Shown piece after piece: positions 27,111 through 47,215 of a stretch of 56,422 nt of DNA (its first letter is position 1; each line of letters starts with the position of its first letter). A program made the translations under genes and the position numbers. A model generated the notes under the pieces. It worked only from the letters and a program-made list of their open reading frames with translations, did not search any database and was not told the origin of the DNA. The stretch is taken from assembly GCA_024226335.1 (NCBI GenBank), contig JAAELY010000494.1:1-56422 (forward strand). The letters run 5' to 3'. Origin of the DNA: a bacterium (GTDB lineage Bacteria; Myxococcota_A; UBA9160; SZUA-336).

Positions 27111-28448
27111 ATGAAGAACAGAACCACTGTGGGAGCAGGCGTGATCATCGCCCTGCTTCCGCTGCTAGCGTTTTCAGCCTGGGCTCAGGCCAGTGAAGGC
27201 GGCGAGAAACCCACATCGTTTGATTCGGAAGCAACCCGTGCGGCGATTCCGAAACCGCTGACACTTTCCTGGTGTCTCGAGCGAGCGCGCGAAGCGAATC
27301 CCACACTCCAGCGAGTCGCCGCGCAAGCCTCTGCTGCGAGGCATCGCATCGTACCGGCCGGATCGCTGGAAGATCCCCGACTCGCGTACGAGGCCAGCAA
27401 TATTCCGACGGGAGACCTCGACTTTCACTCGACGCCCCTATCGGGCCACCAGTTCAGGTTGCGCCAGAAGCTCCCCGTTCCCGGACTTTTGTCGCGGCGC
27501 GAAGAAGCGGCGAGGCGCGCCGCGCAGGCCTCTGCACTGCTCGTCGAGGATCAGGGATTCCTGACCGATAGTGCGGTGGAAGTGGCGTGGGCTGAACTCG
27601 GTTTTGCCCAACAAGCGCTCGACATCACGAGTCGAAACATCGGCCTGCTTCGGCAGCTTTCAGAGACTGCAGAATCCAGGTATCGCGTCGGAAGCGGTCT
27701 CCAACAGGACGTGCTGCGCGCACAGGTCGAACTGACTGCATTGCTTCGCGAACGTCTGCGTCGTGTGGAAGCGATCGAGCGAGCCGAGTCCCGGCTGGTC
27801 GAACTCCTCGACTTGCCCGCAACTACACGGCTCTCGCGGACCTCCGAACTCAGGATGACGACCGAAGAACCTCTGCTCCGGCCACTTCTCGGCGCGCTCG
27901 AAGAACGAAGCACCCGGCTTCGCGCTGCGGGCCGCAGCGTAGAAGCGGCCCGTGCGCGGGTGCGCGCGGTCGAACTCGAAGGGCTTCCCGACGTCGATCT
28001 GGGCATTGGCTACCGAGTGCGTTCGAACGTCACCGGAGACAGGGTAGACGGTGACGACTTTCTTTCCGCCGGAGTCGTTCTTCGCATTCCCGTCAATCGT
28101 TCGAAGTGGCGCGCCCGGGTAGCCGAACAGAAAGCGCTTCTGCGCCGTGCCGAAGCCGACTATCGGGCTACCCGCGCTGCGCTCGCATCCCAGACCCGCC
28201 GCGCTCATGCGGAACTGATCCGCGCTGCATCCGAAGAAGCTCTTCTCGTGACAGGACTCGTTCCACAGGCACAGCAATCCCTCGAATCGAGTCGCTCGGG
28301 ATACAAAGTCGGGCGAATCGGGTTCCTGAGTCTGCTCGATAGTCAGGTCAGGCTTCTGGGTGCAGAACTTCGCCTGGCTCGCACGCGAGCCGACAAACGC
28401 CTGGCCTTCGCAGCGCTCGAGTCTGCGGCCGGGGAGAAACTGCGATGA
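27111..28448 (+). CDS. TolC-family outer-membrane channel (CusC/CzcC-like)
   Basis: This 445-residue protein has a signal peptide (about 1-27) and the two-repeat helical structure of outer-membrane efflux proteins: LSWCLERAREANPTLQRVAAQ at the start of the tunnel helices, the GSGLQQDVLRAQVEL repeat about 195, and the equivalent KVGRIGFLSLLDSQVRLLGAELRL repeat near 415. It would form the outer-membrane exit duct for the copper/silver pump. The ATG at 27111 has GGGAG about 8 nt upstream. Its stop overlaps the cusB start by 4 bp (ATGA), so the pump genes are coupled. Confidence 0.88.
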   Translation: MKNRTTVGAGVIIALLPLLAFSAWAQASEGGEKPTSFDSEATRAAIPKPLTLSWCLERAREANPTLQRVAAQASAARHRIVPAGSLEDPRLAYEASNIPTGDLDFHSTPLSGHQFRLRQKLPVPGLLSRREEAARRAAQASALLVEDQGFLTDSAVEVAWAELGFAQQALDITSRNIGLLRQLSETAESRYRVGSGLQQDVLRAQVELTALLRERLRRVEAIERAESRLVELLDLPATTRLSRTSELRMTTEEPLLRPLLGALEERSTRLRAAGRSVEAARARVRAVELEGLPDVDLGIGYRVRSNVTGDRVDGDDFLSAGVVLRIPVNRSKWRARVAEQKALLRRAEADYRATRAALASQTRRAHAELIRAASEEALLVTGLVPQAQQSLESSRSGYKVGRIGFLSLLDSQVRLLGAELRLARTRADKRLAFAALESAAGEKLR

Positions 28449-29797
28449 ACGCGAGACAACTCCTTCTCCTGCTCGTCTTGCTTCCCCTGGCCCTGGCCGC
28501 TGGCTGGTGGGGGCGCGGTTTGTTCCCGAAGGAATCCCCGATCGATCAGAGTGCCATCGGTGCGACCTCACAAGGCCCGTGTCCCGGAGGCGCATCGCCG
28601 CTCTACTGGGTGGCTCCCATGGACCCAACTTTCATTCGGGAGGAACCCGGGCAGTCGCCCATGGGAATGGACCTCGTTCCGAAGTGTCCCGACAGAAGCG
28701 GCGAGACGCCCGGACGCAGTGTCGTCATCGATTCCGCTACCGTGCAGAACATCGGCGTGAAGACCCTCACAATCGAACGGAGGGACCTCGCGCGCTCGGT
28801 GCGTGCCGTGGGCCGCATCGCGTATGACGAGCGTCGCGTCGCCCACGTGCACACGAAGGTGCAGGGCTGGGTCGAAAAGCTGTTCATCGATTTCATCGGG
28901 CAGACGGTGAAGCGTGGAGAGCCGCTTCTGGAGATCTACTCACCCGAACTCGTCGCAACACAGGAAGAGCTTCTGCTCGCCGCGCGCTATCGGGACGCGA
29001 CGGAAGGCAGTCCCTTCGACGATGTTCGAGGCGGAGGTGAATCGCTTTTCGCGGCGACGAAACGACGCCTTGCGCTCTGGGATGTTCCCGAACGCGACAT
29101 CCAACGCCTTCTCGAGACGGGCGAGGTAAAACGGACCCTCACCCTCTACGCGCCGGCTTCGGGCGTCGTGACTCAACTCGGTGTGCGCTCGGGAATGGAG
29201 GTCAGGCCAAACCTGAACCTCTATACGATTGCCGATCTGTCTCGTGTCTGGGTGCTTGCGGACATCTACGAGTACGAACTTCCGTGGCTTGCGCTCGGCC
29301 AGCAAGCGGCGATCGAACTGCGTTCATTGCCCGGAGAGTGGATGCGCGGCGAACTCAGCTACATCGCTCCATTTCTCGATGCGAAGACTCGCACGGCGGA
29401 AGTGCGCTTCGAACTCGATAACAAGGACGGCAAACTCAAACCGGAAATGTTCGGCAATACGGTGATCACGGGTGCACCTCATTCGGATGTGATCGCTGTC
29501 CCGACCGATGCCATCATCCGTTCGGGAACCCGGGCGATCGCCGTCGTTTCGCTGGGCGAGGGACGTTTCGAACCGCGAGACATCCAACTCGGACTCGACA
29601 CGGGAGATGGCTGGTTCGAAGTTCGTTCCGGTCTACGATCGGGCGAAGACATCGTCATCTCCAGTCAGTTCCTCATCGATAGCGAGAGCAAACTCCGAGA
29701 AGCGGTCCGGAAACTCCGGGCCGCCGGAGCCGGCGAGAACGCAGACTCAGCACTGGACTCGGATGGTCGGGATTCCGGCAGCCGAGACATGGAGTAG
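28445..29797 (+). CDS. cusB: CusB-type RND periplasmic adaptor
   Basis: This 450-residue membrane-fusion protein has an N-terminal hydrophobic anchor (about 5-20) and an early heavy-metal binding segment, YWVAPMDPTFIREEPGQSPMGMDLVPKC, whose Met residues match the CusB/CusF-like copper site. The hairpin/lipoyl region follows (GWVEKLFIDFIGQTVKRGEPLLEIYSPEL, LTLYAPASGVVTQLGVRSGM), then a beta-barrel domain. It would link CusA to the outer-membrane channel and hand over Cu(I)/Ag(I). It overlaps the upstream channel gene by 4 bp, and cusA follows after 5 bp. Confidence 0.92.
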   Translation: MNARQLLLLLVLLPLALAAGWWGRGLFPKESPIDQSAIGATSQGPCPGGASPLYWVAPMDPTFIREEPGQSPMGMDLVPKCPDRSGETPGRSVVIDSATVQNIGVKTLTIERRDLARSVRAVGRIAYDERRVAHVHTKVQGWVEKLFIDFIGQTVKRGEPLLEIYSPELVATQEELLLAARYRDATEGSPFDDVRGGGESLFAATKRRLALWDVPERDIQRLLETGEVKRTLTLYAPASGVVTQLGVRSGMEVRPNLNLYTIADLSRVWVLADIYEYELPWLALGQQAAIELRSLPGEWMRGELSYIAPFLDAKTRTAEVRFELDNKDGKLKPEMFGNTVITGAPHSDVIAVPTDAIIRSGTRAIAVVSLGEGRFEPRDIQLGLDTGDGWFEVRSGLRSGEDIVISSQFLIDSESKLREAVRKLRAAGAGENADSALDSDGRDSGSRDME

Positions 29798-29802
29798 ACG
29801 TC

Positions 29803-32800
29803 GTGCTCCGCCGCATCGTCGAGGCCTCCGCCAACAACCCCGTCATGGTTGCGCTCGGCGTGGCTGCACTGCTGGCCTGGGGTGCCTATGCAGTCTTCCA
29901 CACTCCGCTCGATGCGATTCCCGACCTCTCGGACGTCCAGGTCATCGTACTCACGGAATATCCAGGCCAGGCGCCACGCGTCGTCGAGGACCAGATCAGC
30001 TATCCGCTCTCGACGGCGTTGCTTGCCGTTCCCGGAGCCAAGACCGTTCGCGGCTACTCGTTCTTCGGCACATCTTTCGTCTACGTCATCTTCGAGGATG
30101 GTACGGATCTCTACTGGGCGAGAAGCCGTGTGCTCGAATTGCTGAATACCGTCTCCGGGCGCTTGCCCGCCGGGGTCACGCCGACACTGGGCCCGGATGC
30201 CACGGGTGTCGGCTGGATCTATGAATACGCTCTGGTCGACCGTACCGGCAGACACGATCTGGCCGAGCTTCGCTCCATCCAGGACTGGCACCTCCGTTAC
30301 GCCCTTCAGACCGTTCCCGGTGTCGCAGAAGTGGCAAGCGTCGGCGGTCATGTGCGCCAGTACCAGGTCGAAGTAGACCCGAACCCGCTCGCGGCCTACG
30401 GGCTTTCGCTCAGCCACGTTCGCCGCGCGATTGAGCGCAGCAATAGCGAAGTGGGCGGACGGCTTTTCGAACAGGCGGAGACGGAGTTCATGGTGCGCAG
30501 CCAGGGTTTCGTCCGATCGACCCGCGACCTGGAACAGATCGCCGTAGGTGCCGATGAGTCCGGAACGCCGATCTTGCTGCGGAACATCGCGACGGTGTCG
30601 ATCGGCCCGGAGATGCGCCGCGGCCTCACTGATCTGGACGGTGAAGGAGAGGTCGCCGCGGGAGTGGTCATCATGCGTTACGGAGAGAACGCACTCGAGA
30701 CCATCCGAAAGGTCAAAGAGAAACTCGCCGAGGTCGAGACGAGTCTCCCGCCCGGTGTGGAAATCGTTCCGGTCTACGATCGCGGGCCGCTCATCGAACG
30801 CGCGGTGGAGAATCTCGGCGAGAAACTGTTGGAGCAGGCCCTCATCGTCGCCCTGATCTGCGCGGTCTTTCTCATGCACATGCGAAGTGCGCTTGTGGCG
30901 ATCCTGATTCTGCCCCTCGGCATTCTCTTCTCCTTCATCGTGATGTTCCACCAGGGCATCAACGCCAACATCATGTCGCTCGGCGGCATCGCGATTGCCA
31001 TCGGCACGATGATCGATGCGGGAATCGTCATGGTCGAGAACGCTCATAAGCACCTCGAACGCGACAGCGGTCAAAAGCCACGGCGCGAGATCCTGATCGA
31101 CGCAGCCGTGGAAGTCGGCCCCTCATTGTTCGCTTCCCTGTTGATCGTCTCGATTTCATTCCTGCCGATCTTTGCCCTCGAAGCCCAGGAAGGGCGTTTG
31201 TTCAAACCACTGGCGTTCACGAAGACCTATGCGATGCTCGGCGCCGCGCTTCTTTCCATCACGGTCGTTCCCGCATTGATGATGTGGTTGGTTCGAGGCA
31301 CGATCCTGCCAGAGCGGCGCAACCCGTTGAACCGTTTGATCCTGTGGATCTATCGACCTGCCCTCAGCGCGGCCCTTCGACATCGTTTCACCGTGGTGAC
31401 GATCGCCGGTTTCGCGCTTCTCGCGAGCGTCTATCCACTCGAGCACATCGGTTCTGAGTTCATGCCCCCATTGGATGAAGGCGATCTGCTCTACATGCCG
31501 ACCACGCTCCCTGGAATCTCCATCGCAAAAGCCCGAGAACTGCTTCAACAGACGGACCGGATCATCGCCTCGGTACCCGAGGTCGAGCGCGTGTTTGGCA
31601 AGGTCGGAAGGGCTGAAACCGCGACGGATCCGGCGCCGCTGAGCATGATCGAAACGACCATCACATTGAAACCTCGAAGCGCCTGGCGGCCCGGCATGAC
31701 GCCAGAAAAGCTGGTCGCGGAACTCGACGGAATGATCCGATTCCCGGGGCTGAGCAATGCCTGGACGATGCCGATCAAGACACGCATCGACATGCTTTCG
31801 ACCGGAATCAAGACCGCCCTCGGCATCAAGATTTCCGGCCCCGATCTCTCGGTTCTCGAAGAACTCGGAGAACACGTCGAGGCGATCCTGCGCGAGGTTC
31901 CCGGTACACAGAGCGTCTACGCGGAGCGGGTTTTCGCTGGAAACTATCTGGATATCGACATCGATCGTGAACAGATCGCCCGCTACGGAATTACCGTACG
32001 TGACGTCCAGGACGTCATCCAGACGGCGGTCGGCGGCCTGAACATCACGCAGACGGTCGAAGGCCTGGAACGCTACCCCGTCAATCTGCGCTACAGCCGA
32101 GAGCTTCGGGACGACCTCGCATCCCTGCGGCGCGTCCTCGTCTCGACTCCGGGTCGCGCACAGGTGCCCCTTGAACAGCTCGCTTCGCTCAGCTTCGTGA
32201 AAGGTCCTCCGGCGATCAAGACCGAGAACGCGCGACCCAGTGCCTGGGTTTTCATCAGTCTGGATGGAATCGACATCGGCACCTATGTGCGAGACTCGCG
32301 CGAGGTGCTTCGAGACCGTCTCGATCTGCCGTCCGGCTATACCCTGGAGTGGAGCGGTCAATACGAGTATCTGGAACGCGCCCGGAATCGCCTTGCCCTG
32401 ATCGTCCCCGCAACTCTAGGAGTGATCTTCTTCCTGCTCTATGTGGTCTTCAGGAACACTCGCGATGCGCTGCTCGTAATGTCCTGCCTGCCGTTTGCGC
32501 TCGTGGGGGGAGTCTTGCTGCTCTGGGTGCTCGACTACGACTTCAGTGTTGCCGTCGGCGCGGGATTCCTGGCACTGGCCGGGCTCACAGCCGAGACGGG
32601 CGTGATCATGCTGCTCTTCTTGAACCAGGCCCGCGATCGCGCTCTGGATTCGGGCGCTCTTCGAACAGTGCAGGACCTGTGGCGTGCCACGATCGAGGGT
32701 GCGACCTACCGAGCCCGGCCCTTGTTGATGACGGTGGCCTCCGACGCAATCGGCTTGCTTCCGATCATGTGGGGAGCAGGAACGGGTTCAGAGACCATGC

Positions 32801-32928
32801 GCCGTATTGCCACTCCAATGGTAGGCGGCGTCGTGACGATCTCACTGGTCACACTCATCCTCATGCCCGTTTTCTTCGTCCTTGTGCACGCTCGAAATCT
32901 TCCCACGGGACCGGTCGAGGACGACTGA
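29803..32928 (+). CDS. cusA: CusA-type heavy-metal RND transporter
   Basis: This 1041-residue proton-driven inner-membrane exporter has twelve expected TM segments and two large periplasmic loops. AIGTMIDAGIVMVENAHKH matches the HME4 (monovalent Cu/Ag) branch rather than CzcA. EFMPPLDEGDLLYMPTTLPG and WTMPIKTRIDMLSTGIK carry methionines in the positions of the CusA metal relay. The start is GTG, 5 bp after cusB. Together with CsoR upstream this makes a complete CusCBA tripartite efflux locus; no cusF or copper ATPase gene is present in the window. Confidence 0.95.
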   Translation: MLRRIVEASANNPVMVALGVAALLAWGAYAVFHTPLDAIPDLSDVQVIVLTEYPGQAPRVVEDQISYPLSTALLAVPGAKTVRGYSFFGTSFVYVIFEDGTDLYWARSRVLELLNTVSGRLPAGVTPTLGPDATGVGWIYEYALVDRTGRHDLAELRSIQDWHLRYALQTVPGVAEVASVGGHVRQYQVEVDPNPLAAYGLSLSHVRRAIERSNSEVGGRLFEQAETEFMVRSQGFVRSTRDLEQIAVGADESGTPILLRNIATVSIGPEMRRGLTDLDGEGEVAAGVVIMRYGENALETIRKVKEKLAEVETSLPPGVEIVPVYDRGPLIERAVENLGEKLLEQALIVALICAVFLMHMRSALVAILILPLGILFSFIVMFHQGINANIMSLGGIAIAIGTMIDAGIVMVENAHKHLERDSGQKPRREILIDAAVEVGPSLFASLLIVSISFLPIFALEAQEGRLFKPLAFTKTYAMLGAALLSITVVPALMMWLVRGTILPERRNPLNRLILWIYRPALSAALRHRFTVVTIAGFALLASVYPLEHIGSEFMPPLDEGDLLYMPTTLPGISIAKARELLQQTDRIIASVPEVERVFGKVGRAETATDPAPLSMIETTITLKPRSAWRPGMTPEKLVAELDGMIRFPGLSNAWTMPIKTRIDMLSTGIKTALGIKISGPDLSVLEELGEHVEAILREVPGTQSVYAERVFAGNYLDIDIDREQIARYGITVRDVQDVIQTAVGGLNITQTVEGLERYPVNLRYSRELRDDLASLRRVLVSTPGRAQVPLEQLASLSFVKGPPAIKTENARPSAWVFISLDGIDIGTYVRDSREVLRDRLDLPSGYTLEWSGQYEYLERARNRLALIVPATLGVIFFLLYVVFRNTRDALLVMSCLPFALVGGVLLLWVLDYDFSVAVGAGFLALAGLTAETGVIMLLFLNQARDRALDSGALRTVQDLWRATIEGATYRARPLLMTVASDAIGLLPIMWGAGTGSETMRRIATPMVGGVVTISLVTLILMPVFFVLVHARNLPTGPVEDD

Positions 32929-38786: not shown

Positions 38787-39245
38787 ATGACGAGCAACGC
38801 TGCACAGTCAAGCGATCGCGACCCGCCCCCGTTTGGCTTCGCCTATGCGGCGTTCGGGTTTGCCCTGGTTGCGATGCTGGGCAGCTTGTTCTTCGGCGAG
38901 ATCATGAAGCTGCCGCCCTGCACGCTGTGTTGGTACCAGCGCATCTGCCTGTTTCCGCTGACCGCTGTGCTCGCGGTCGGCATCGCTTTGCGCGACCAGA
39001 GGATCAGCGCCTACGCCCTGCCCCTGGTGATCGCCGGTCTGGTGATCTCGACCTACCACAATCTTCTCCAACTCGGTTTGATCGACGAGGCGCTCAGCCC
39101 ATGCACCGGCGGCGTCTCGTGTTCTGAGCAACAGATCGAATTTCTGGGTTTCGCGAGCATCCCCATGATGTCTCTGGTCGCATTCTTGGCGATCCTGGGT
39201 AGTCTTGTCGCCCACCAGCGAACGCAGCCGAAAGCGAGTCAATGA
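38787..39245 (+). CDS. dsbB: Disulfide bond formation protein B (DsbB/BdbC type)
   Basis: This 152-residue inner-membrane protein has four TM helices and both redox cysteine pairs: C45-T-L-C48 in the first periplasmic loop (PPCTLCWYQRICLFPL) and C106/C112 (SPCTGGVSC) in the second. It reoxidises the DsbA-like partner, passing electrons to quinone. The short form is the BdbC type, which usually pairs with a membrane-anchored BdbD. Its stop overlaps the start of that partner gene by 4 bp (ATGA), so the pair is translationally coupled. Confidence 0.93.
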   Translation: MTSNAAQSSDRDPPPFGFAYAAFGFALVAMLGSLFFGEIMKLPPCTLCWYQRICLFPLTAVLAVGIALRDQRISAYALPLVIAGLVISTYHNLLQLGLIDEALSPCTGGVSCSEQQIEFLGFASIPMMSLVAFLAILGSLVAHQRTQPKASQ

Positions 39246-39901
39246 AAGACGTCTACAGACTGGGAGCGATCGCCATTGCACTTCTCGCGGCCTTTGGAAT
39301 CGCCGCCGCGATCTACTCTCGAAGCCAAGATCAGGAGCGATCCGAGCAGGTACGGAAACAGGCGACGAGCGATCCTGCGGTTTTCGTCCGGCCCCATAGC
39401 CGCTTCATCGGGCCCGCAGATGCGGAGGTCACGGTCGTCGAGTTCTTCGATCCGGAGTGCGAGGCGTGTCGGAAGGCTCACGCACCGGTCAAGCAGTTGA
39501 TCTCAGGCTACTCCGGCCGAGTGAGGCTCGTGATGCGTTACATGCCGTACCATCCGAACTCCGTCTACGCAGCCGGTGCACTGGAAGCTGCGGGGGCGCA
39601 AGACCGCTACTGGGAAATGCTCGACACCTTGTTCGAACATCAACCGGCCTGGGGCGACCATCACGCGCCCAAGCCCGAACTGATTCCCGGCTACGCCCGT
39701 GAAATCGGCCTGGACATGAACGCGTTCGTGCAATCGATCGAAAGCGGCACCCACAAGCGACTGGTCGCGACCGACCGAATCGACGGCGAAAGGCTCGGGG
39801 TCTCCGGTACTCCATCTTTCTTCGTCAACCAGAAGCCACTCGTTCGACTCAGCCTCGTGGACCTCAAGAAGATGATCGATTCGGAACTCGCCGCGAATTA
39901 G
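39242..39901 (+). CDS. Membrane-anchored DsbA-like thiol:disulfide oxidoreductase (BdbD type)
   Basis: This 219-residue thioredoxin-fold protein has an N-terminal membrane anchor (about 7-25) and a periplasmic catalytic domain. The active site is C73-E-A-C76 in FFDPECEACRKAH, and cis-Pro P191 lies in GTPSFFVN. The Glu-Ala pair between the cysteines differs from E. coli DsbA (PH). It is coupled to dsbB upstream. Its 3' end faces the AhpD-like selenoprotein gene with a 42-bp gap, giving a three-gene thiol-redox patch. Confidence 0.9.
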   Translation: MKDVYRLGAIAIALLAAFGIAAAIYSRSQDQERSEQVRKQATSDPAVFVRPHSRFIGPADAEVTVVEFFDPECEACRKAHAPVKQLISGYSGRVRLVMRYMPYHPNSVYAAGALEAAGAQDRYWEMLDTLFEHQPAWGDHHAPKPELIPGYAREIGLDMNAFVQSIESGTHKRLVATDRIDGERLGVSGTPSFFVNQKPLVRLSLVDLKKMIDSELAAN

Positions 39902-44704: not shown

Positions 44705-45793
44705 ATGTGGATCGGATTGATCGTGCTACTGCTGTGTGCGGGCGTCGTCGCGCTCGTCCTGGTTCTGCTGGACTCCTCAGATCACAGCCAGCACGACCGG
44801 CCTCGACACGAACTGATCAAACCGGCGCATGCGATCAGTCCCCAGCATCAAGATGTCGTGAAGACTCTCGGCGTTTTCCACGAGACGGCGCCGAGTCCTC
44901 GCGACGTCGCGGCCCAGCGACTGCACACGGAGGAACTCTTCGGGCGCGAGGTCGAGTCGCAGGTGACTCCGGTCGATGTCGATGGCGTTGCCGCTGAATG
45001 GGTGCAAGCCGAAGGCTCACGTTCGGAACAGCGCTTGCTCTACCTGCACGGTGGAGCTTTTCGCGTCGGCAGTCCGAAGAGTCACAGAGGCATGACCGAC
45101 AGTCTGTCGCGCCTCACGGGGGCGTCGGTGCTCGCAATCGACTATCGGATGCTGCCCGAACATCCCCTGATGGCGTGCCACGAAGACGCCCGCAAGGCGT
45201 ACCGTTGGATACTCGAGAACGGACCCGAGGGCCGCTCGGAAGCGCGGGGCTTGTATGTGGCCGGTGACTCCGCGGGAGGCAATCTGACACTCGCGCTCAA
45301 CGCCTGGATCCGGGATCGAGGGTTGCGCGCGCCAAACGCCACGGTCGCGATGGCCCCGACGACAGATGGCACCATGCGCAGCCCCAGTTGGCGCAGCAAT
45401 CGCGCGAGCGATCCATTTCTGGGCCCCATGATCGGCCCGCTGATGCGCATTCCGCGACCGTTGCTGCTGGTTGGCATGGCGGCGTCCAATCGCTGTCGTC
45501 CGAACAATCCGGAAGTCTCGCCCCTGCTCGGCGAATTGTCCGGATTGCCTCCTACGTTGATCCAGGTGAGCGAGCAGGAGTTGCTCTTCGACGATGCGCG
45601 CCGCTACGCAAACAAGGCGAGCGCCGCGGGCTCGCCGGTGAGGCTCGAAGTCTGGCCCACACTGGTACACGTTTTCCAGGTCTTTTCACCGGACCTTCCC
45701 GAGGCCGATGAAGCCCTGAATTCAATCGCGAGCTTCGTACGAGAACGCATGCCCTTGGACGATTCAATCGCGATCGTGCGCGAGGTCAGCTAG
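44705..45793 (+). CDS. Alpha/beta hydrolase of the HSL/steryl-acetylhydrolase type with N-terminal TM
   Basis: This 362-residue serine hydrolase has HGGAF (115-119) for the oxyanion hole and GDSAGG (187-192) with S189 as nucleophile, marking the hormone-sensitive lipase family. The Asp lies in LLFDDAR and the His in LVHVFQ near the C-terminus. An N-terminal TM segment (about 3-22) anchors it in the membrane. Family enzymes hydrolyse short-chain esters. Start at 44705, with GGAG about 6 nt upstream. It is divergent from DUF3604 and upstream of the Cys/His-repeat gene. Confidence 0.88.
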   Translation: MWIGLIVLLLCAGVVALVLVLLDSSDHSQHDRPRHELIKPAHAISPQHQDVVKTLGVFHETAPSPRDVAAQRLHTEELFGREVESQVTPVDVDGVAAEWVQAEGSRSEQRLLYLHGGAFRVGSPKSHRGMTDSLSRLTGASVLAIDYRMLPEHPLMACHEDARKAYRWILENGPEGRSEARGLYVAGDSAGGNLTLALNAWIRDRGLRAPNATVAMAPTTDGTMRSPSWRSNRASDPFLGPMIGPLMRIPRPLLLVGMAASNRCRPNNPEVSPLLGELSGLPPTLIQVSEQELLFDDARRYANKASAAGSPVRLEVWPTLVHVFQVFSPDLPEADEALNSIASFVRERMPLDDSIAIVREVS

Positions 45794-45924
45794 GCTCGGC
45801 AGTCCCCGGCATTCACTTGTCGGCATTTCACTGCACTCGAATCGGGGGCGAGGCGGCGTTCGGACATTTCGAATCGGCACGCAGTTTGCTCGGTCGAACT
45901 CTCGGAACCATGAAGGAGATTCGC

Positions 45925-46539
45925 ATGCGCTTGGCACTACTCATCGGCCTCATCGGGCTCCTGTCCGGCCTGCCCTCAGCAGTACTTGCAGAAGTGGATT
46001 GCGAGAAAGAAGCTCAAGAACCGCGCTGCGAGCGCTGCAAGCAGAACGGGGATCACGAACGCTGTAAGCTTCACGGGGATCACGAACGCTGTAAGCGCTG
46101 CAAGCAGACCGGGGATCACGAACGCTGCAAGCTCCACGATCGTCACAAGGGGCACGATTGCGATCACCGCCACCGATTCGACCTGGCTCTTTTCGACTGG
46201 GAATCCAACCCCGATGAGCGGCGCATCCAGGTCCTGGATCTCTTCCTGGTTTCGCTCCTGGACGCGCGCCGACACGGAACCGACAATTCGCACATCGAAG
46301 TGCTGACCGTCCCCTTCATCAAAGGCTTCGAGAGCCGGCGTTCCGCGGATCGTCGCGAATTACGCGTCCTGGATCTGCCGCTCGCCAGTCTTTTCGAGAT
46401 GGAAAGAGACGGAGACGATTCGCACCTGGGAGTCCTGAATCTCCCGCTGATTGGCTCGCTCTTCAGTCAAAGAATCGAGGACGGTCACCGTCACACGAAC
46501 GTGTTGTTCCTGATGCACTTCAAACGCCCCTCCCCCTGA
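45925..46539 (+). CDS. Exported Cys/His-repeat protein with C-terminal beta-like repeats
   Basis: This 204-residue protein belongs to no family I recognise. After a signal peptide (about 1-22) it has a Cys/His-rich segment (26-82) in which GDHERCK occurs three times with CxxC spacers (CERCKQN, CKRCKQT). A second region (about 94-200) repeats a 22-residue unit four to five times with the core VLxLPLxxLF (QVLDLFLVSLL, EVLTVPFIKGF, RVLDLPLASLF, GVLNLPLIGSL), which suggests a repeated beta structure or solenoid. Metal binding by the first part is plausible. ATG at 45925 has GGAG six bases upstream; an earlier ATG at 45910 is possible. Underlying DNA repeats at 46048-46132. Confidence 0.7.
   Translation: MRLALLIGLIGLLSGLPSAVLAEVDCEKEAQEPRCERCKQNGDHERCKLHGDHERCKRCKQTGDHERCKLHDRHKGHDCDHRHRFDLALFDWESNPDERRIQVLDLFLVSLLDARRHGTDNSHIEVLTVPFIKGFESRRSADRRELRVLDLPLASLFEMERDGDDSHLGVLNLPLIGSLFSQRIEDGHRHTNVLFLMHFKRPSP
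46048..46132 (+). repeat. Internal 22-bp coding repeats (three copies)
   Basis: Near-identical 22-bp units begin at 46048, 46075 and 46111, spaced 27 and 36 bp (9 and 12 codons), and encode GDHERCK. High DNA identity with codon-multiple spacing indicates a recent in-frame expansion. Confidence 0.85.
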
Positions 46540-46558
46540 TTCGCGATGCGAATCGCGC

Positions 46559-47215
46559 TCAGACTTTGGAACGATCCCCCACCGGGCCGTGTACGCGTGC
46601 CGGTGTACCGAATGCGAGCGAGTGGTCGGGAATTGATCGGTTGACCAGCGAGCGAGCTCCGATCACGCAGTGGCTTCCGATCTCGACACCTTTCATTACA
46701 AAGACATCCGAGCTGATCCAGGTGTGAGCTCCGATGCGGATGGCGGCCGTCTGCTCCGGGTTCGCATCGTCGAGCGCGTGTTGATCTGAATCGAGCACCC
46801 GACTCCCGGGGCCGATCCAGGCGTTCTCGCCGATTTCCATGCGCTTCTTGGCGCTCAGATGGCACGCGTGCAACCAGCCGCGCGGAGCGATCAAGAGTTG
46901 AGCATTGTCGAAGGCGCGCAGATGCATGGTTCCCAGATCCGTGTAGAGCCAGGTGTCTTCACCGATATCGATCTCTCCGCCTTCTCCGATCCTGAAGCGA
47001 ACTGCGTGGCGGCGGCGCTCGGTAACGACACCCTTGCCGATGCGCAGCCGGGCGCCGGGCGCGAGTTCGAACTCGGCCTGCACCAGATTGGTGCTCGCCT
47101 CGGGATGGATTTCGAGACCTGGATGCAGCTGCATCAATCGCCGCAGGCGAAAGCGATCCCACGCTTGAAGCAGCGGCCAGTAGATCCGGAACCAGAGACG
47201 TCGCATACCTTTCAT
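46559..47215 (-). CDS. Hexapeptide-repeat (LbetaH) acyltransferase
   Basis: This 218-residue protein has a short basic N-terminus and a left-handed beta-helix built of hexapeptide repeats: GARLRIGKGVV, GGEIDIGEDTWLYTD, KRMEIGENAWIGPGSRVLDSDQH, AIRIGAHTWISSDVFVMKGVEIGSHCVIGARSLVNRSI and the ending FGTPARVHG. The H in DSDQHAL is the usual catalytic His context in O-acetyltransferases of the NodL/LacA/CysE type. It probably acetylates a sugar or another cell-surface precursor. ATG at 47215; the longer frame upstream lacks homology. Confidence 0.82.
   Translation of the reverse strand: MKGMRRLWFRIYWPLLQAWDRFRLRRLMQLHPGLEIHPEASTNLVQAEFELAPGARLRIGKGVVTERRRHAVRFRIGEGGEIDIGEDTWLYTDLGTMHLRAFDNAQLLIAPRGWLHACHLSAKKRMEIGENAWIGPGSRVLDSDQHALDDANPEQTAAIRIGAHTWISSDVFVMKGVEIGSHCVIGARSLVNRSIPDHSLAFGTPARVHGPVGDRSKV

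Follow-up and report, generated by a model that had tools for sequence, protein, structure and literature searches.

The CCHC zinc knuckle follows the pattern CX2CX4HX4C. The protein described here resembles it in a short C-x2-C ... H ... C order, found in two cores, but the spacing is x5/x2 instead of x4/x4, the zinc knuckle pattern itself is absent, and the protein is probably exported. A second likeness is to Cys/His-rich metal-binding proteins of bacteria, for example the His-rich nickel proteins of Helicobacter (PMC4671568, PMC3856676): these too are small bacterial proteins with clustered potential metal ligands. In the present protein the cluster is a duplicated array on a domain whose relatives are free of the array.

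The gene lies on the forward strand of a 56,422-nucleotide contig from an uncultured bacterium related to the myxobacteria, henceforth referred to as the window. Translation of the window gives an open reading frame (45925-46539) of 204 amino acids with no internal stop. The sequence-only reading had proposed an exported protein of two parts, and both proposals were borne out: the signal-like start recognized by eye at residues 1-22 makes export probable, most likely to the periplasm, and a Cys/His stretch is followed by a C-terminal 22-residue repeat. Feature coordinates are collected in Table 1. A promoter and terminator scan of positions 45600-46800 returned nothing exceeding chance, and the second match to the protein in its own genome was weak (C295, E 0.23).

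Table 1 Coordinates of features in the window and at related loci (window positions unless a locus is named).
Feature	Position	Strand	Basis
Gene, 204 codons plus stop	45925..46539	+	Translation; C-terminal homologues in six other genomes
Probable ribosome-binding site AAGGAG, 6 bases 5' of ATG 45925	45913..45918	+	Position observed; role inferred
Signal-peptide-like segment, residues 1-22, end VLA/E	45925..45990	+	Read by eye
Cys/His stretch, residues 26-83, 8 Cys and 9 His	46000..46173	+	Absent from 7 homologues and 88 other class genomes
First 16-residue core, CERCKQNGDHERCKLH	46027..46074	+	Pattern and repeat analysis
Middle GDHERCK unit; second core starts at its last Cys codon	46075..46095	+	
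Second 16-residue core, CKRCKQTGDHERCKLH, 43/48 bases as in first core	46090..46137	+	
Conserved C-terminal repeat domain, without Cys	46177..46533	+	Profile match; periodicity
Penicillin-binding transpeptidase plus TonB C-terminal domain (PF00905 + PF03544)	L016:8464-10050	+	Pfam
Penicillin-binding transpeptidase plus TonB C-terminal domain (PF00905 + PF03544)	L017:5636-7297	+	Pfam
Penicillin-binding transpeptidase plus TonB C-terminal domain (PF00905 + PF03544)	L022:7048-8424	-	Pfam
Exported protein, ~300 aa	L016:11193-12125	+	Near domain gene or fusion gene
Exported protein, ~300 aa	L017:3700-4635	-	Near domain gene or fusion gene
Exported protein, ~300 aa	L018:8543-9436	+	Near domain gene or fusion gene
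Exported protein, ~300 aa	L067:3191-4156	-	Near domain gene or fusion gene

The DNA sequence GGGGATCACGAACGCTG[T/C]AAG was found at exactly 46048, 46075 and 46111, the three nearly identical GDHERCK repeats that had been noticed beforehand. The units at 46048 and 46075 fall within one 24-base identity, and the unit at 46111 differs by a single T/C. An exact direct-repeat search of the whole 56-kb window (seed 15, copies within 100 bases) placed all 12 of the longest repeats listed, several of them nested, in the Cys/His array. The array also has the highest score (101) of the 24 tandem-repeat rows for the window. With codon frequencies taken from 15 genes of the window, P is ~0.006 that two GDHERCK copies of separate origin agree in every one of their seven codons; because codon choice alone gives so low a value, DNA duplication is the better account of the copies. 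The Cys/His array arose by recent in-frame duplication, observed in one genome; the relatives searched are of other genera, and of the ongoing expansion first proposed it is the recent duplication that is shown.

At the protein level, residues 26-79 contain all eight Cys, and residues 44-83 nine of the 15 His. CxxC occurs exactly twice, with its first Cys at C35 and at C56, in keeping with the CxxC pairs noted at the first inspection. The core pattern C-x2-C-x5-H-x2-C-x2-H spans 16 residues and is present in two copies spaced 21 residues apart, with a third GDHERCK sitting between them. The two cores are identical at 43 of 48 bases and all five potential ligands are kept in both; five differing bases do not suffice for a selection test. 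Residues 74-83, outside the repeats, contribute four more His and one Cys.

Homology was confined to the C-terminal part. A protein query of 59 genomes (own and relatives) gave matches in four, own included, and every foreign match was limited to residues 79-202; the independent homology test was that of the window protein against L003 (E 5.7e-22). A profile of the domain, which is ~119 residues long, matched eight places in seven of 90 class genomes, own included. A draw of 377 genomes from the phylum, at least 287 of them outside the window's class as judged from the class size of 90, returned the same seven carriers and no further genome. The window, itself a row of the profile, matched positions 1-120 of 121 with E 2.9e-49. 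The other members are L003, L004 (=L019), L005, L006 (=L016), L010 (=L018), L011 (=L017) and L012 (in L022), with domains 19-39% identical to that of the window. In the homologues read, as in the window, the domain is C-terminal and follows an N-terminus that looks signal-like by eye. A single-protein query of the named genome collection found no relative, while the four-row alignment A5 found four loci there (three labeled Myxococcota bacterium and one Myxococcaceae bacterium), judged to be the same places as L006, L011, L010 and L004. No match to the protein was obtained by tblastn in plasmids and phages. In the tree, the window groups with L003, whose organism belongs to the same family (support 100/98). 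L006, L010, L011 and L012 form a separate branch (99/98); the longest terminal branch is that of the window.

The claim that no known family has this combination of parts stood up to database searches. Pfam and NCBIfam searches of the whole protein and of each half, the latter being the profile check suggested at the outset, gave only inconsistent matches under curated cut-offs and no characterised family, and none of the eight domain members matched either database at E 1. The PDB sequence search gave no match for the protein or for profile A2, and a best E of 0.89 for profile A4. None of the paper titles found describes the protein, which does not prove its absence from print. The C-terminal half represents an undescribed, probably exported domain family carried by a minority of genomes in one Myxococcota class.

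The C-terminal part of the window's protein has a 22-residue period (z 5.7), and its maximum over lags was matched by none of 5000 shuffles. By eye there are four units of 22-23 residues, starting VLDLF, VLTVP, VLDLP and VLNLP and flanked on both sides by a partial unit, which agrees with the four to five copies counted earlier. When the eight domains were analysed separately with 1000 shuffles each, a sharp period was seen in the window (22) and L003 (23), unlike the other six members, whose best lags ranged from 20 to 25 (P 0.035 to 0.35). The sharp repeat marks the window's branch more than the whole domain family. AlphaFold models, covering five of the eight members (all but L003, L005 and L012), were of low confidence (mean pLDDT 44 and 41). 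Strands appeared solely in the C-terminal module, and one homologue's domain had a hairpin at each end; the module may thus have beta structure, while the fold of the domain is not to be read from these models because their mean pLDDT is 44 or less.

The Cys/His array has a different distribution. It was present in none of the seven homologues read and, of 89 class genomes searched, was confined to the window's own genome, one Cys-free match aside. That match, in G080 (E 0.0028), was rejected as chance, there being no Cys in the 41 matched residues. None of the eight domains contains Cys, and L003 and L005 have none over the frames taken. L004 has one Cys and L006 two, within the signal-like segment, which by eye could be a lipoprotein-type start. 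The counts for L010, L011 and L012 are four, five and four, respectively, in frames taken from stop to stop, so that some of these Cys precede the likely start. A short way past the signal peptide, EAQEP is common to the window and L003; beyond it the two differ, with a short linker in L003 at the position of the array; linkers of the homologues vary in length and sequence. As a side observation, a gene for a DUF4920 protein with CQKKGCW (L023:1390-1911, +) adjoins L003, the closest homologue, on the opposite strand. The simplest account would be gain of the array in the window's lineage, loss in L003 and the others appearing less likely. Since the domain is common to relatives that all lack the array, the two parts need separate explanations, and they very probably are modules of separate history.

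The genes around the window's gene encode a DUF3604 protein, an alpha/beta hydrolase, a hexapeptide transferase and a GFA-type enzyme, and no metal operon was found among these neighbours. The upstream hydrolase has its nearest relative (66% identical) in G006, where the 7.5 kb taken around that gene gave no domain match. Elsewhere in the window, ~13 kb away and not adjacent, is a CusB/CusA-type heavy-metal efflux pair (28445-32925; HlyD_D23 plus heavy-metal-binding domain, and ACR_tran). Also not adjacent, a DsbB-like gene is directly followed by a DsbA/thioredoxin-like gene (38787-39898).

The reading we favor, tentatively when taken as a whole, is that of an exported two-module envelope protein with a Cys/His module that most likely binds metal. 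The N-terminal module would have grown in this lineage by in-frame DNA duplication in the linker that joins the signal peptide to the domain. The metal bound, outside the cytoplasm, would most likely be a soft or borderline one (zinc or copper, for example), and the array would be a small tail holding metal on an envelope protein. The C-terminal module would be a repeat domain that is probably rich in beta structure and belongs to an undescribed family of the cell envelope. It is the spacing of the Cys and His residues that suggests metal binding, and this spacing is compatible with the metal sequestration first proposed. Counting against a metal role, the protein matched no metal-binding family in Pfam or NCBIfam, and no metal gene lies next to its own. 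The c-type cytochrome haem motif CxxCH is absent from it, as is MxCxxC, the motif of HMA-type metal-binding domains, to which there was no Pfam match either. A narrower version, in which the 21-residue-period module, recently duplicated in the linker, is a new extracytoplasmic metal buffer with its capacity set by copy number, seems improbable.

The strongest competing explanation holds that slippage lengthened a disordered spacer, that the Cys form disulfides and that the domain alone is functional. It is possible, though we would not expect it to be correct; metal binding is only slightly more likely than a disulfide-linked spacer. It would account for the array being limited to one of the 89 class genomes searched and for linkers that differ among homologues; the units are spaced in multiples of 9 bases and CGCTG[C/T]AAG recurs in them, both as expected from slippage, and the DsbB- and DsbA-like genes in the window fit a periplasm where Cys may pair. 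Random slippage, however, does not predict that five Cys/His positions stay intact in both cores, nor that the non-repeat residues 74-83 add four His and one Cys.

Favoring a place in peptidoglycan or TonB-type envelope machinery, with the array incidental, a same-strand gene in which a penicillin-binding transpeptidase is fused to a TonB C-terminal domain comes after the domain gene at three of the four loci of one branch (L016, L017 and L022; L018 is the exception). Genes for ExbD and TonB are close by in L022 (Pfam), and ExbB/ExbD/TonB-like genes, named by eye, occur in L017 and L018 too. The fusion is an unusual architecture; literature titles contained no description of it, which does not prove its absence from print. 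As a query it matched, at least partly, in 74 of the 89 class genomes. Matches that extend to the TonB end, as one piece or as two adjoining pieces, were found in G047, G063, G043, G010, G057, G035 and G037, and G058 gave one partial match. However, four of these seven TonB-end genomes (G063, G010, G037 and G035) have no known domain gene, and the flanks taken around their fusion-like genes gave no domain match. The window's own genome had no fusion match at E 1e-20, and the window's gene, L003, L004 and L005 have no such neighbours, the contigs of L003 and L005 being shorter than 4 kb. The link between domain gene and fusion is real for three loci yet says little on the window's protein, and it is unlikely that this protein is a partner of such machinery with an incidental array. 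A ~300-aa exported protein with an N-terminal LRP-x-G-D-x-Y-x-L-x-L-like sequence was also observed in four genomes (L016, L017, L018 and L067); its gene adjoins or is near the domain gene in the first three, and no Pfam match was obtained for the three proteins tested.

Overall, the locus combines an unnamed domain family with a private, recently duplicated ligand-like array, and the evidence is good for two modules of separate history, of middling strength for an exported envelope protein and no more than suggestive for metal binding. The C-terminal domain family has no Pfam or NCBIfam model. In three relatives, the link of the domain gene to the fusion offers a starting point for studying the envelope of a class that is represented here by genome assemblies alone. 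If metal binding is true, the window's protein would be a clear-cut example of ligand-array growth by DNA duplication within an existing protein, and its array-free relatives would serve as natural controls.
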